Position numbers and translations under genes: made by a program. DNA of 64,000 nucleotides from Petroclostridium xylanilyticum (GTDB taxonomy: Bacteria > Bacillota > Clostridia > SK-Y3): contig NZ_NPML01000019.1 in the NCBI RefSeq assembly GCF_002252565.1, positions 186,001 to 250,000 on the forward strand. The letters run 5' to 3'. The notes under the pieces are model-generated. The model worked only from the letters and a program-made list of their open reading frames with translations, did no database searches and was not told the origin of the DNA. Positions 41,699-47,358 of this stretch are shown here, one piece after another (positions within the stretch are counted from its first letter, which is position 1; each line of letters opens with the position of its first letter).

Positions 41699-42388
41699 CT
41701 ACTCTTCTTTTAATTTATATTTATTTTTGGGTCGCCCTATGTTTCCATATTCCGGTTCAACTACAACCTTTTGTTTTCTTTCCAGATAGTCCAAATATCT
41801 CCTGGCAGTAATTCTGGAAACACCTATTTTTTTTGCAATTTGGCTGGCGGTAAAGGTTTCTCCACGCATCTCCTCTATGCTTTCTAAGATTTTTTTATAT
41901 GTGTGCGGATTAAAACCCTTAATGTCTCTAATATCATCTTCCTCTGATACAGTTACTTTTTCATTTAAAATATATTTATCTATAACATCCTGTTCTACAC
42001 TAGTGATGTTTTCCAAATTATTTTTTCTATTTTTATATTGCAGCATTGCTTCTTTAAACCTGTCAAAGGTAAAGGGCTTTATCAGGTAATCTACTGCTCC
42101 ATAGCGAAAGGCTTCCTCTACAGTTTTCATACTTTTATCTGCCGTGATCAATATGACATCGCATTTTATGTCCTCCTTACGGATCCATTTTAATAGATCT
42201 ATTCCTCTTCCCTGAGGGAAAAAGACATCTAATAGTACCAAATCCGGCCTCCTTTTTAATATAGACTCTTTTGCCCTTTCGATGGAGTTAACACTATCAT
42301 GGACGGTATAACCTTCTATTTTTCTTAAAAACTTTTCATTGATTTCTCTTACCATTGGATCATCTTCTACAATTAAAACCTGGATCAC
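41699..42388 (-). CDS. DcuR/CitB-type response regulator
   Basis: A 229-residue response regulator. The receiver domain has the VEDDP acidic pair and phosphoacceptor D54 in LVLLDVFFP. The CitB-type helix-turn-helix region contains TASQIAKKIGVSRITARRYL and ends NKYKLKEE. I place the start at a GTG at 42388 with AAGGGGA seven bases upstream; the longer frame to 42469 overlaps the kinase gene. It starts one base after the kinase stop. CitB/DcuR regulators usually control carboxylate uptake. Here the neighbours are an FMN-binding lipoprotein and a type II NADH dehydrogenase, so a redox or electron-acceptor role is possible. Confidence 0.9.
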   Translation of the reverse strand: MIQVLIVEDDPMVREINEKFLRKIEGYTVHDSVNSIERAKESILKRRPDLVLLDVFFPQGRGIDLLKWIRKEDIKCDVILITADKSMKTVEEAFRYGAVDYLIKPFTFDRFKEAMLQYKNRKNNLENITSVEQDVIDKYILNEKVTVSEEDDIRDIKGFNPHTYKKILESIEEMRGETFTASQIAKKIGVSRITARRYLDYLERKQKVVVEPEYGNIGRPKNKYKLKEE

Positions 42389-42389
42389 T

Positions 42390-43964
42390 TTAACGTCCCC
42401 TTTCCATTGGTATAAAGATATCCCAGATTGTTCCGTTATCTTGTAAAAGTTTAATTGTTCCTCCTGCATTATCTACAATTTGCTTGACAATATTAAGTCC
42501 GTAACCCCTGCTTTTAGCTTTGGTAGTAAATCCTCTATCGAAAATCCTATCTTTGATCTCTTCACGGATACCGGGACCATTGTCTTCAACCCATATCCTT
42601 AAACCTTCATCATCTGAAATCAATTTAACAATAATCTTACCATTTTCAACTTTCACTAATTCATCTATAGCATTTTCAATTAAATTTCCAATCACCGAAC
42701 AAATTTCATCCACCGTAATATTTTCAGGAATTTTCGTTAAATTTGAGTTAGGATCCATCACCAAGTTAATCTTTGCTTCTATAGCTTTATTATATTTTGC
42801 CAGAAGAATCCCGGCTATATGTGCATTTCTTATTTTATAATTCAATATTCCCAAAATCTCTTGTCTTTGATTAGATATGTCTGAAATATATTTTATAGCT
42901 TTATCATATTCTCCCAGCTGGATCAACCCAGATATAGTATGAAGCTTATTCATAAATTCGTGGTTTTGTGCTCTCAAAGCCGATGTCAGTTTCTTTATAC
43001 CAGTTAACTCTTCTGCCATTTGCTTTACCTCGGTCAAATCCTGAAAACTAGATACTACCCCAATAATGTCCTTTTTATGATTTCTCAGCAAGGTATGACT
43101 ACATAACAAAGTTTTGCCGGGACTTATCCTGATTTCCTGATTATATACGGATTTTTGTGTTTTTAATGCATCCATAATGGAATCGGTATAATTAGAGTTG
43201 AAACTTGAGATATTTTTACCTATGTCATCGGACTCGAAGCCAAAAATTTTCCTGGCAGCTTTATTAAATAATATTATATCTCCCTTTTGATCTATTGCCA
43301 AAATACCATTTTTTAAACTCTGCAAAATGATGTCCCGCTGCCCTAAAAGCAATGCAATTTCCTTTGGTTCTAATCCAAATATGGTTTGTTTAATGTTAAA
43401 AGATAGTATTGCAGCCCCAATAACTCCAATTAACAGGCCTAAAACTAACGTCAGCTCAAAAATAAATATGTGAGACCTGATTTCTTCATACACTTTGTTG
43501 GTTAAAAGTCCTACTAAAACTGCCCCTACCTGCTTCCCATTATAATGGATAGGCGCAAAAGCCCTGATTGCAGAAATCAAAACATTTTTGTCCTTAGAGA
43601 CATAGGCTTCCCCTGTTTTTAGCACCCGCTCCTCTCCACCACTTATATATTTTTTCCCCAGGTCGTATTCAATAGGATATGAATATTTTATTCCATCCAT
43701 ATCCATAACAATGATGTATTGGAACCGGGTCTTGTGCTTGAAACTTTCTATAGTATTTTGAATAATCCTGTAGTCTTTTGTAGTGGCTAACGTTTCTTTA
43801 ATTGTATCCATGGCTGCAATGGTTACTGCTAAATCCATTGCATTATTTCCCATCTGGGTTTCAATTGTCTTTTCCAGCTGTTTATGGGTTAAAATTCCTA
43901 TTCCACCAATAACTATAACTAATATAATGGTCATAAATAAAGTTATCTTATATTGTAATTTCAA
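42390..43964 (-). CDS. DcuS/CitA-type sensor histidine kinase
   Basis: A 524-residue membrane kinase. TM1 lies near 8-26, followed by a small extracytoplasmic single-Cache domain (about 35-165) with YIIVMDMDGIKYSYP, and TM2 near 167-190. The CitA-family IFGLEPKEIA junction leads into a cytoplasmic PAS domain (about 210-310). The phosphoacceptor H335 lies in RAQNHEFMNKLHTISGL, and the HATPase domain has VEDNGPGI and SRGYGLNIVKQI. The TTG start at 43964 follows AGGTGGAGG. Relatives sense citrate, malate or C4-dicarboxylates. It follows the FMN lipoprotein gene by about 20 bases, so that gene is probably in the same transcript. Confidence 0.9.
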   Translation of the reverse strand: MKLQYKITLFMTIILVIVIGGIGILTHKQLEKTIETQMGNNAMDLAVTIAAMDTIKETLATTKDYRIIQNTIESFKHKTRFQYIIVMDMDGIKYSYPIEYDLGKKYISGGEERVLKTGEAYVSKDKNVLISAIRAFAPIHYNGKQVGAVLVGLLTNKVYEEIRSHIFIFELTLVLGLLIGVIGAAILSFNIKQTIFGLEPKEIALLLGQRDIILQSLKNGILAIDQKGDIILFNKAARKIFGFESDDIGKNISSFNSNYTDSIMDALKTQKSVYNQEIRISPGKTLLCSHTLLRNHKKDIIGVVSSFQDLTEVKQMAEELTGIKKLTSALRAQNHEFMNKLHTISGLIQLGEYDKAIKYISDISNQRQEILGILNYKIRNAHIAGILLAKYNKAIEAKINLVMDPNSNLTKIPENITVDEICSVIGNLIENAIDELVKVENGKIIVKLISDDEGLRIWVEDNGPGIREEIKDRIFDRGFTTKAKSRGYGLNIVKQIVDNAGGTIKLLQDNGTIWDIFIPMERGR

Positions 43965-43983
43965 TAACCTCCACCTCTTGTTG

Positions 43984-44337
43984 CTACTTTTCCTTTATCT
44001 TTGCCTTACTAAGTCCATCAGTAATGGCCTCTATAAGCCCTTTACTGGTATACGTTGCTCCCGCTACTACATCTACGTCTGCCCTATTGGCTTTAATAAC
44101 CCTTTTTGGAATTTTTTCGTATACTATTTTGCTAAGCTCAGGCATTTCGTACTCTTCTATGATCTTAATTTCTTTTATCCTGTATTGATCTGTGGTTATC
44201 ATTACTTTTATAGGTCCATGATGACCTTCCCCAACTCCTTCATAGCTTCCTGCCTGATAATGTATTCTTTTTGATGTACAAGCTGTTAGTCCAACTGTTA
44301 ATAATACGGTTAAAATCAAGATGGTCTTTCTTTTCAA
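43984..44337 (-). CDS. FMN-binding domain lipoprotein
   Basis: A 117-residue secreted lipoprotein. The signal peptide begins MKRKTILIL and the lipobox is GLTAC. The mature part is one FMN-binding domain with YEGVGEGHHGPIKVMI and the flavinylation-type motif DVVAGATYTSKG, whose Thr is the expected site of covalent FMN attachment by ApbE. I favour the TTG at 44337 (GGGTGG five bases upstream) over the GTG at 44346, which abuts its site. Such lipoproteins (for example Listeria PplA) pass electrons outside the membrane, often with an NDH-2. An NDH-2/DoxX gene lies directly upstream and a DcuS-like pair downstream. No ApbE is in the window. Confidence 0.85.
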   Translation of the reverse strand: MKRKTILILTVLLTVGLTACTSKRIHYQAGSYEGVGEGHHGPIKVMITTDQYRIKEIKIIEEYEMPELSKIVYEKIPKRVIKANRADVDVVAGATYTSKGLIEAITDGLSKAKIKEK

Positions 44338-44478
44338 GTACGCCACCCTTCCTCATTAACATAATGCAACAAGCCTTTACTTCAATATAATTAATATAAT
44401 ACTTTATTCATTATACCATTTTGACATTTTTCTGTCATTTTTATTTGCTATAATATTTTTTAAAATATCTGATAACAC

Positions 44479-44518
44479 AAAAAAGTCCTCTTAAAGTATC
44501 CTTTAAGAGGACTTTTTT
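44479..44518 (-). terminator. Rho-independent terminator after the NDH-2 gene
   Basis: AAAAAAGTCCTCTTAAAG and CTTTAAGAGGACTTTTTT form a perfect 18-bp stem with a 4-base loop and T-runs on both strands, 20 bases past the NDH-2 stop. Confidence 0.9.
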
Positions 44519-44537
44519 CGCTATTATATCAAATATA

Positions 44538-46466
44538 TCAAAGTTTAACTTGTTTATTGAACGGATAACTGATATTGTCTACATATAGATAGTACTTTCT
44601 TACAATTCCTATTTTCTTCCATAGTTTCTTTAGTACAGGCAATACATAGTAATCCAGACCAAAAGTGCTTCCTGCGCCACCTATTAGGGCTATACCCCCG
44701 CTTAGATACCACAACATCTCGTATGGTGCCATACCTGAAGCCCATATCATCATACCCATTGCAACCGAAACAATGGATGCAACTGCTGTAAATAATCCGG
44801 CGATTAACAGCAATCCTACCACTATCTCACCTATTACCATACCTGCCTGGAATATCTGGGCTAAAACGGTATATCCTCCATCGGGTGTATAGAAAAATAT
44901 ATCCATGGACCATTTAACAATGCTGTCAATAAAGCCCGGTACCGGTAAAGCCGTTCCCCATTGAGACACTGTTTGCCCTGCTGCTCCCGCTGCAGCTGTT
45001 GCGGCACTTGTAGCATCAACAGCCGCCTGTGCTGCTTGTGATGCCCCTGTTACAGCATCTGCTGTTGGTGGAGGCGGTATTAAGAAGATCTTTGAAGGAT
45101 CTTGTAATATTCCAGGCAACTTATGCAAACCCTGCTCTAGCCATTTGTAACCAACAAAAATTCTAAGCGGTACCAACCAGAAGTTTGGAGACGCCTTCGC
45201 AAAATGCCCGCCGACAAAACTTCTCCTATCTTTCACATGGAAGAATTCATGCAGCATGTAGGACCAGCATTTATTAAATCCGGCTACCTGGAAGAAGTAG
45301 ACCAGGTTTATAAAATGCTTTATAAACATTGCAAAAAAGCCGGATAAGCTAATGAACTTGCCCGGAACACCCAAATGTGCTACCCCGTAACGCCCGCCTA
45401 TACATACCATTACACCGTGGAATTCCGGTTTATAGGACTTCTTTTGGCCACCTTTTATATCGGTATAAATGTTATGTGCAATGATAGGCGCGGCATGCTC
45501 ACAGTTTTCTACCATCTGTGGGACAGGACGTTCCTCACCTTCAGGAATATAGAACATATTATCCCCAACAACATAAACATTTTCATAACCTGGAGCCTGC
45601 AGCTTGTCATTTATAACTATCCTTTTTCTACCCTTCTGCTCAAGGTCCATCTTGCCAACAAGGTCCGAACCTTCAACGCCAGCTGCCCAGATTACAGTAT
45701 ATGTGTCTATGATTTCTTTATCTCCTAATGTAACCGAATCTTCTGTAACTTTTGTGATGCCAGCACCGGTTATTATGTTGACACCTAATTTTTCAAGCCT
45801 TTTTTCAGCTTTTTTAATTAAATTCTTAGGTAAATTTGGTAGGATTGTAGGCAAAACATCTACCACGTATAATTTAACTTCCTCTTTCTCGATATGGAAG
45901 TCTTCACATAGTCTATCCTTCCACTCACCCAATTCACCAATCATTTCTATACCGGTAAAACCGCCACCCACTACAACAAAAGTCAGCAGTTTTTGTCTTG
46001 CTTCTTCATTCGTTTCCTTGACAGCTTTTCTAAACATGTTCAGAATGTGTTCCCGCAGATGAACAGCATCTTCATAAGACCATAACTTTTGGGTATATTC
46101 CTCTGCCCCCGGTATACCAAAAAACGTTGGCTTACATCCGGTACCTATTACTAAATAATCGTATTTGTAAGAGCTTCTCCCCGACCTTAGTACCTGATCT
46201 TTAAAATCTATATCTGTAATTTCATCAAGTACGACATTGACTTTTCTACCTGCAAATATTTTCTTTAAGTCAATCCTGATAGCATCTTCTTCAACTCTTC
46301 CGGCCGCAACCTCATGAAGTTCAGTAAGTAGCGTATGATATGGCTTTTTATCGATTAGTGTAATTTCTACACTGTCATCTTTTTTAAACTTCTTTGCAAG
46401 TTTTTTTGCAGTTAAAACTCCACCGTAACCGCCACCAAGAATAACCACTTTTTTCTTGCTGCTCAC
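44538..46466 (-). CDS. Type II NADH dehydrogenase fused to a DoxX-like membrane domain
   Basis: A 642-residue fusion. Residues 1-400 are an NDH-2 flavoprotein with an FAD-binding VVILGGGYGGVLTAKKL motif, an NADH-binding VVVGGGFTGIEMIGELG motif, and VYVVGDN near residue 300. From about 425 a DoxX-like domain with four hydrophobic segments begins (LRIFVGYKWLEQGLHKLPG). It is interrupted by an Ala/Thr-rich linker (about 465-510). NDH-2 oxidises NADH and reduces a membrane quinone without pumping protons. The membrane domain may anchor it or relay electrons. The GTG start follows GGGGG. It is monocistronic, with a strong terminator before the FMN-lipoprotein gene. Confidence 0.9.
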   Translation of the reverse strand: MSSKKKVVILGGGYGGVLTAKKLAKKFKKDDSVEITLIDKKPYHTLLTELHEVAAGRVEEDAIRIDLKKIFAGRKVNVVLDEITDIDFKDQVLRSGRSSYKYDYLVIGTGCKPTFFGIPGAEEYTQKLWSYEDAVHLREHILNMFRKAVKETNEEARQKLLTFVVVGGGFTGIEMIGELGEWKDRLCEDFHIEKEEVKLYVVDVLPTILPNLPKNLIKKAEKRLEKLGVNIITGAGITKVTEDSVTLGDKEIIDTYTVIWAAGVEGSDLVGKMDLEQKGRKRIVINDKLQAPGYENVYVVGDNMFYIPEGEERPVPQMVENCEHAAPIIAHNIYTDIKGGQKKSYKPEFHGVMVCIGGRYGVAHLGVPGKFISLSGFFAMFIKHFINLVYFFQVAGFNKCWSYMLHEFFHVKDRRSFVGGHFAKASPNFWLVPLRIFVGYKWLEQGLHKLPGILQDPSKIFLIPPPPTADAVTGASQAAQAAVDATSAATAAAGAAGQTVSQWGTALPVPGFIDSIVKWSMDIFFYTPDGGYTVLAQIFQAGMVIGEIVVGLLLIAGLFTAVASIVSVAMGMMIWASGMAPYEMLWYLSGGIALIGGAGSTFGLDYYVLPVLKKLWKKIGIVRKYYLYVDNISYPFNKQVKL

Positions 46467-46728: not shown

Positions 46729-46848
46729 TCACGCTGTAGAATTTCTAATAATCAGTTCTGTTTTCATTACGATATCTTCTACCTTCTCGCCTTTTATCTT
46801 TTTTAAAAGAATTTCCATCGCTTTCTTTCCTAAAGTATATAGTGAACT
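46729..46848 (-). pseudogene. C-terminal tail of a LacI-family regulator
   Basis: The minus strand reads SSLYTLGKKAMEILLKKIKG then EKVEDIV and ELIIRNSTA before a stop at 46729. This is the typical last 40 residues of LacI-family proteins. No upstream body or start is present, and sequence before GGGGCTAG is unrelated. It is a deletion relic upstream of the NDH-2 gene. Confidence 0.7.
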
Positions 46849-46911
46849 AGCCCCCTGACATTATAAGGTGCCAAGGGGTTCATTCATAATCTTTTATTAT
46901 AAGTTTTAAAA

Positions 46912-47025
46912 TTAATAAGGTTTTATAAACATTTGTGTCCAGTAGTTTGTACCATTCTTATCTTTCGCAAGACCTACACCGATTTCAGTATAGGAAGAAC
47001 TAAGAATATTACTAAGGCCGGCTTT
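46912..47025 (-). pseudogene. C-terminal tail of a CAP/SCP-like domain protein
   Basis: Thirty-seven codons in one frame read GLSNILSSSYTEIGVGLAKD, then NGTNYWTQMFIKPY and a stop at 46912. NIL...EIGVG...YWTQMF is the closing motif of bacterial CAP (YkwD-like) secreted proteins. A stop codon precedes the segment and no start is visible, so it is a fragment. Confidence 0.65.
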
Positions 47026-47091
47026 TTATGTTGCATATTTTTTGTAATTATTGTGATTAAAATAATAAAATATAAAAATCTTTCATGTTTA

Positions 47092-47331
47092 TTAGCAATA
47101 TATAAATCTTACAACACTTGAACCTCTCCCACTTTGACAATGTTTAGCAATCATCTTTACATCAGAGTTCTTATGCTCTAAAAACCGAGGATACAGTGAT
47201 TTGTCTTCAATTGCTAAATGTACTCTCAGTTTTCCTGCAAGTGTTGATAGCAATTTACAAATCGTTTCTGCATTATTGTCCATTTTATTGCTTTTTGATA
47301 ATTCTAAAATTTCATTGATATACACAAACAT
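47092..47331 (-). pseudogene. Truncated hemerythrin-like (HHE) domain
   Basis: A 79-codon frame with ETICKLLSTLAGKLRVHLAI followed by EDKSLYPRFLEHK, characteristic of one half of a hemerythrin four-helix bundle. The N-terminal helix start with its iron-binding His is missing or shortened. After MIAKHCQS the sequence turns into unrelated residues and stops, so the second half with further iron ligands is gone. Expected family length is about 130-190 residues. No convincing ribosome site precedes the ATG. It is likely non-functional. Confidence 0.6.
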
Positions 47332-47358
47332 GAACCAAAGGATAAATATCCTACTGTC

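Follow-up and report, generated by a model that had tools for sequence, protein, structure and literature searches.

The 64,000-nucleotide stretch of Petroclostridium xylanilyticum DNA analysed here (the window) carries a three-gene operon for an FMN_bind lipoprotein, a DcuS/CitA-type sensor histidine kinase and a DcuR-type response regulator. This trio is likely to be a switch for extracellular electron transfer, because in several anaerobic bacteria it sits inside gene clusters for flavin-based extracellular electron transfer (FLEET). The reading we favour, at a probability of about one half, is that the three genes form a signalling module dedicated to FLEET, in which the lipoprotein acts as a flavin co-sensor of the kinase.

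Searches of the window's open reading frames against Pfam and NCBIfam confirmed four genes, all on the minus strand, at the coordinates given by an earlier sequence-only reading (Table 1). That reading had placed an NDH-2/DoxX-type gene, the lipoprotein gene and the kinase–regulator pair in one neighbourhood, which is confirmed, with the correction that NDH-2 and lipoprotein do not share an operon. A perfect 18-pair hairpin forms the intrinsic terminator between these two genes, and the lipoprotein gene has its own extended -10 promoter, the elements of which (AATGACAGAAAAA and ATGGTATAAT) are identical in a Petroclostridium relative. Because this terminator and this conserved promoter lie between them, the NDH-2 and lipoprotein genes are separate transcription units here, and a single operon of all four genes was rejected for the window's genome. 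The neighbourhood is thus one gene (NDH-2) and one three-gene operon, with 19 bases between the lipoprotein stop and the kinase start and 1 base between kinase and regulator. Two start codons are probably to be revised. The lipoprotein probably begins 9 bases downstream of the listed GTG, with TTG 44337, since its homologues align from there and GAGGAAGG precedes it. The regulator probably begins at GTG 42388, one base past the kinase stop, rather than at 42469; its Petroclostridium counterpart starts with ATG.

Table 1. Features of the NDH-2 and lipoprotein-kinase-regulator locus (positions in the window)
Feature	Position	Strand	Details
NDH-2/DoxX-type fusion	44538..46466	-	642 aa, GTG start; Pyr_redox_2 and weak DoxD
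Intrinsic terminator 3' of NDH-2 gene	44479..44518	-	-28.7 kcal/mol for the folded stretch, z -7.2
Promoter of lipoprotein-kinase-regulator	44410..44438	-	ATGACA-17-TATAAT, TG before -10; kept in Petroclostridium
FMN_bind lipoprotein	43984..44337	-	117 aa from TTG (120 aa from GTG 44346); lipobox LTAC
Predicted ApbE flavinylation motif DVVAGAT	44053..44073	-	acceptor Thr98, numbering from GTG at 44346
DcuS/CitA-type sensor histidine kinase	42390..43964	-	524 aa, TTG start
KYSYP, replaced ligand motif of the extracytoplasmic sCache domain	43674..43688	-	RY[ST]HP in DcuS/CitA
DcuR-type response regulator	41699..42388	-	229 aa from GTG 42388
Palindrome TTTGTTA-NN-TAACAAA	46605..46620		NDH-2 upstream region

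The NDH-2 protein matches Pyr_redox_2 (Pfam, E 8e-43), and its C-terminal membrane part gives a weak DoxD match (residues 543-625, E 7e-4) that is below the Pfam cut-off; judged on Pfam domains, it is an Ndh2 with a membrane domain, as found in FLEET. The window's gene is the sole complete NDH-2/DoxX copy in the genome, because the second copy lacks the first ~215 residues. This truncated gene (L049:7098-8201, at 425 kb on contig C19) adjoins the ApbE gene, lies between two FMN_bind genes and resembles a decayed FLEET dehydrogenase.

Upstream of the window's NDH-2 gene lies a palindrome, TTTGTTATTTAACAAA, a possible operator that is unique in the genome in its exact form and has a conserved Petroclostridium counterpart with a single mismatch. 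Its matches show no genome-wide enrichment, being fewer than those of the reversed control. The half-site sequence resembles a Rex site, and the spacing differs from what we take to be the Rex consensus. Comparison of the promoter regions revealed no operator common to the lipoprotein and NDH-2 genes. Flanked by NDH-2 and a GH127 gene, positions 46732-47358 (minus strand) contain gene remnants: one is hemerythrin-like (E 5e-4), one matches the terminal part of a CAP/SCP domain (E 2e-4), and another may be the tail of a LacI-type regulator (E 0.014).

The claim that the lipoprotein bears a flavinylation motif is borne out. The protein combines an FMN_bind domain (Pfam, E 4e-14) with the lipobox LTAC and with DVVAGAT, a form of the ApbE motif DxxxGAT in which the threonine is the acceptor (PMC10339131), and in an alignment G96 and T98 are invariant across 11 relatives. 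Its AlphaFold model (mean pLDDT 84) superimposes on domain 1 of CbFMN4 (PDB 8p2b), which was crystallised with FMN on the motif threonine (PMC10339131), with a TM score of 0.85-0.89 by target, an rmsd of 1.3-1.4 and 34-37% identity across the domain. Taken with the ApbE gene in the genome, motif and modelled fold predict that the lipoprotein is a covalent flavoprotein.

Conservation of the trio was examined in a lipoprotein-alignment scan, relying on two short patterns, of 84,980 species genomes, from which the best 80 loci were retained. Lipoprotein, kinase and regulator occur in this order in seven of them (L059-L063, L067 and L068) and in none of the other 73. The top five loci by score are all of the trio type; L064-L066, which rank before L067 and L068, are not. 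The seven linked loci belong to Petroclostridium, Maledivibacter, two Acidaminobacter, Petrocella and two MAGs, and they span the Caminicellaceae, Acidaminobacteraceae and Vallitaleaceae as well as the window's own family. An NDH-2/DoxX gene lies upstream in all six linked loci whose contig reaches far enough (the seventh contig ends too early), and is absent near the lipoprotein in all 73 unlinked loci among the best 80. In all eight linked loci, the window's included, the lipoprotein gene stands directly ahead of the kinase gene at a spacing of -1 to about 22 bases. The arrangement of trio and NDH-2 is not a product of chance, although the loci counted are related sequences, so that the Fisher p values for these counts are descriptive and overstate significance. 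Among 398 phylum-wide and 391 class-wide genomes this type of kinase was found in the window's genome and Petroclostridium only; the other top kinase matches examined in these samples carried motifs like RYSHP, and none had an FMN_bind gene closer than 1.5 kb.

The surroundings of the trio in the relatives are of the FLEET type. In Acidaminobacter the order is lipoprotein, apbE, ndh2/doxX, NusG_II, Hpre_diP_synt_I (PF07456), polyprenyl synthase, FMN_bind lipoprotein, kinase and regulator, so that the trio closes a FLEET operon; the contig of the second Acidaminobacter starts within ndh2 and shows the same order from there on. PF07456 is the family of EetB, which in Listeria is the substrate subunit of the FAD export that supplies flavinylation (PMC9973259). 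In Maledivibacter, ndh2, a PF07456-like gene, polyprenyl synthase, UbiD, UbiA, UbiX and two ABC genes precede the trio, and in Petrocella and HGW-Firmicutes-2 the order is ndh2, polyprenyl synthase, trio and UbiA. The ABC ATPase and permease genes directly 5' of the flavin lipoprotein in Maledivibacter (L061:6462-7956) recur in a Bacillota MAG (L060:111-1666); neither pair has a binding-protein gene, and the flavin lipoprotein occupies the position expected of one.

These clusters bear on whether the neighbourhood is incidental in the window's genome, the trio regulating something else, such as an amino-acid symporter, and the adjacent NDH-2 being residual synteny. NDH-2 and trio are indeed separate transcription units here, sugar-utilisation genes flank the block in the window, and in Petroclostridium an AGCS gene lies 77 bases downstream of the trio. 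However, several lineages whose flanks otherwise differ have NDH-2/DoxX and quinone-precursor genes beside the trio, and no AGCS gene lies 3' of the trio elsewhere in the linked set, which leaves an incidental neighbourhood unlikely. AGCS-type sodium/amino-acid symporter genes lie near FMN_bind lipoproteins at L043:5820-7208 and L046:5440-6843 (Petroclostridium, Tissierellales).

The window's genome holds every FLEET-type gene family of the relatives' clusters, spread over three sites, with most of the genes either ~180 kb from the window's NDH-2 and trio or on another contig. There is one ApbE gene (E 2e-88), at 423 kb on C19, and its neighbours (418-432 kb) encode a lipoprotein with two FMN_bind domains, a protein with one such domain, polyprenyl synthase, UbiA and UbiD. 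The last three supply a quinone branch of the FLEET kind and presumably correspond to DmkA/DmkB. The lipoprotein with two FMN_bind stretches (L049:8250-9110) is PplA-like, and an EetA/EetB-like pair (NusG_II and PF07456) on contig C7 is likewise of the FLEET type; a genome search for ECF-T (PF02361) gave five matches, too common to inform. The proposed link to flavin-based extracellular electron transfer is therefore supported, by the ApbE, EetA/EetB-like, PplA-like and quinone-precursor genes and by the place of the trio in the relatives' FLEET-type clusters. The sequence-only reading would have fallen with a genome devoid of ApbE and other transfer proteins, and this is excluded by the presence of the genes.

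The kinase comprises sCache_3_2, PAS, SPOB_a and HATPase_c domains, and the regulator Response_reg and HTH_64 (Pfam). The best NCBIfam profile of the kinase is DcuS/MalK, at E 2e-131, where its 439 bits fall short of the cut-off (520); that of the regulator is DcuR, likewise under its cut-off. The genome encodes no other full-length DcuS-type kinase. The solved DcuS/CitA sensor domains have the RY[ST]HP motif or a near form of it, as do nearly all members of a set of 43 unlinked kinases drawn from relatives and from the phylum-wide and class-wide samples; read by eye in the alignment, the histidine is missing from one of these kinases and the arginine from two. The linked kinases instead carry [KQ]Y[SA]YP (KYSYP in the window) in 8/8 sequences against 0/43 unlinked ones, counts that are taken over related sequences of a clade of single origin rather than over independent events. 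Moreover, the G-x-(L/S/M)-G loop has become N-(V/E)-L-I-S in all eight. Since the linked kinases form one clade (support 99/98), the motif change was one event, kept through divergence to 43% identity. All of them retain one pocket arginine later in the domain, the R of AIRAF. The structural model of the kinase has a mean pLDDT of 67, which is too low for the pocket to be assessed, and its structure comparison spanned the ATPase region only.

The sequence-only reading had called this a carboxylate-type sensor, which is right for the domain architecture and doubtful for the ligand. It is unlikely from the sequence that the kinase senses citrate or C4-dicarboxylates, because the Arg/His ligand motif is gone from its clade and the H110A variant of DcuS is in the OFF state (PMC3892338); some other input is probably read. 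Taken literally, the earlier proposal would have the kinase sense citrate or a C4-dicarboxylate and control the reduction of fumarate or another carboxylate outside the cell. The DcuS/DcuR architecture of kinase and regulator would fit this, and some other relatives of the lipoprotein adjoin secreted FAD_binding_2 reductases of the fumarate/urocanate-reductase type. Against it, ligand motif and loop are replaced across the clade, and a FAD_binding_2-type reductase match lies within 1.5 kb of the lipoprotein in none of the seven linked loci. Nor was an extracellular fumarate-reductase-type partner seen among the strongest FAD_binding_2 matches examined in the genome; the two strongest, considered as partners, proved to be NadB, with nadA and nadC alongside, and an AprA-like protein that lacks a signal peptide. 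We regard control of carboxylate reduction as very unlikely. At L044:4038-5859 and L045:6080-7900, a single FMN_bind lipoprotein adjoins a secreted FAD_binding_2 reductase, an arrangement that amounts to a split extracellular reductase and that in L044 is preceded by a kinase–regulator pair of another type.

In the mechanism we propose for the module, ApbE, acting outside the membrane, would attach FMN to the lipoprotein's Thr98, as motif, fold and the presence of ApbE suggest; quinol from NDH-2/DoxX would reduce this FMN and external acceptors would oxidise it. Co-transcribed with the kinase, the lipoprotein may then act as a flavin-based co-sensor in the way that DctB does for DctS in Bacillus. 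The sCache domain, which lacks the citrate/C4-dicarboxylate motif, would read the lipoprotein's redox state or occupancy, possibly by direct contact, whereupon the regulator would adjust electron-transfer genes. DcuS-type kinases are known to use the accessory co-sensors DctA, DcuB and DctB, the last with DctS (PMC6978683). It is quite possible, if a shade short of even odds, that the flavinylated lipoprotein is specifically a redox-sensing subunit, and that through its FMN the cells read the oxidation state of the outward pathway and hence the supply of external acceptor.

The co-sensor step is drawn from gene order and co-transcription, and the lipoprotein could equally be a carrier co-encoded with its regulator. 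Indeed, the two-component system might control FLEET through another small external ligand, such as a quinone, a flavin or a humic compound, with the lipoprotein as a co-transcribed terminal electron carrier. The synteny that argues for the module applies to this arrangement too, and single-domain FMN_bind lipoproteins elsewhere are coupled to reductases (26/73 unlinked loci, within 1.5 kb). In addition, the pocket arginine kept in all linked kinases suggests a remaining ligand site, and in L. plantarum DHNA and iron together induce ndh2 and pplA (PMC8837199). However, the trio comes without a coupled reductase or acceptor protein, and the lipoprotein gene always directly precedes the kinase gene and overlaps it in two genomes, points which fall on the side of the co-sensor. 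A separate ligand with the lipoprotein as carrier is accordingly possible and, in our estimate, rather doubtful.

Control of flavin-based extracellular electron transfer is poorly known; for the induction of ndh2 and pplA by quinone and iron in L. plantarum, no regulator is named in the literature examined. A conserved kinase–regulator pair in FLEET clusters, with an altered pocket and a flavin lipoprotein of its own, is a concrete candidate. The parts are all of known kinds, and what appears to be new is their combination and their fixed place in FLEET-type clusters together with a changed sensor pocket: the open-licence literature on flavinylation and FLEET yielded no description of a FLEET-linked kinase or of such a two-component system. 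If the lipoprotein does sense, ApbE flavinylation, so far described as serving electron transfer, would gain a new role.

Compared with the FLEET locus of Listeria monocytogenes and lactic acid bacteria (Ndh2, EetA/EetB, DmkA/DmkB, FmnA/FmnB and PplA), the relatives carry counterparts in one cluster, namely ApbE, NDH-2 with a membrane part, NusG_II, PF07456 and polyprenyl synthase, to which the lipoprotein–kinase–regulator trio is added. With DcuS/DcuR, CitA/CitB and MalK/MalR the window's pair shares domain architecture and sequence similarity, but it differs in its ligand motif and loop, scores under the NCBIfam cut-offs and is linked to a flavin lipoprotein rather than a transporter. The lipoprotein resembles the FMN_bind domains of multi-flavinylated proteins, such as CbFMN4 domain 1, in fold and acceptor motif, whereas it is single-domain and lipid-anchored, and unlike its reductase-linked FMN_bind relatives it lacks the E[ST]PG stretch. 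Finally, the trio is like DctB-DctS-DctR of Bacillus subtilis in joining an extracytoplasmic accessory protein to a DcuS-type kinase and a regulator; DctB is a C4-dicarboxylate co-receptor, whereas the accessory protein of the window is a predicted covalent flavoprotein.
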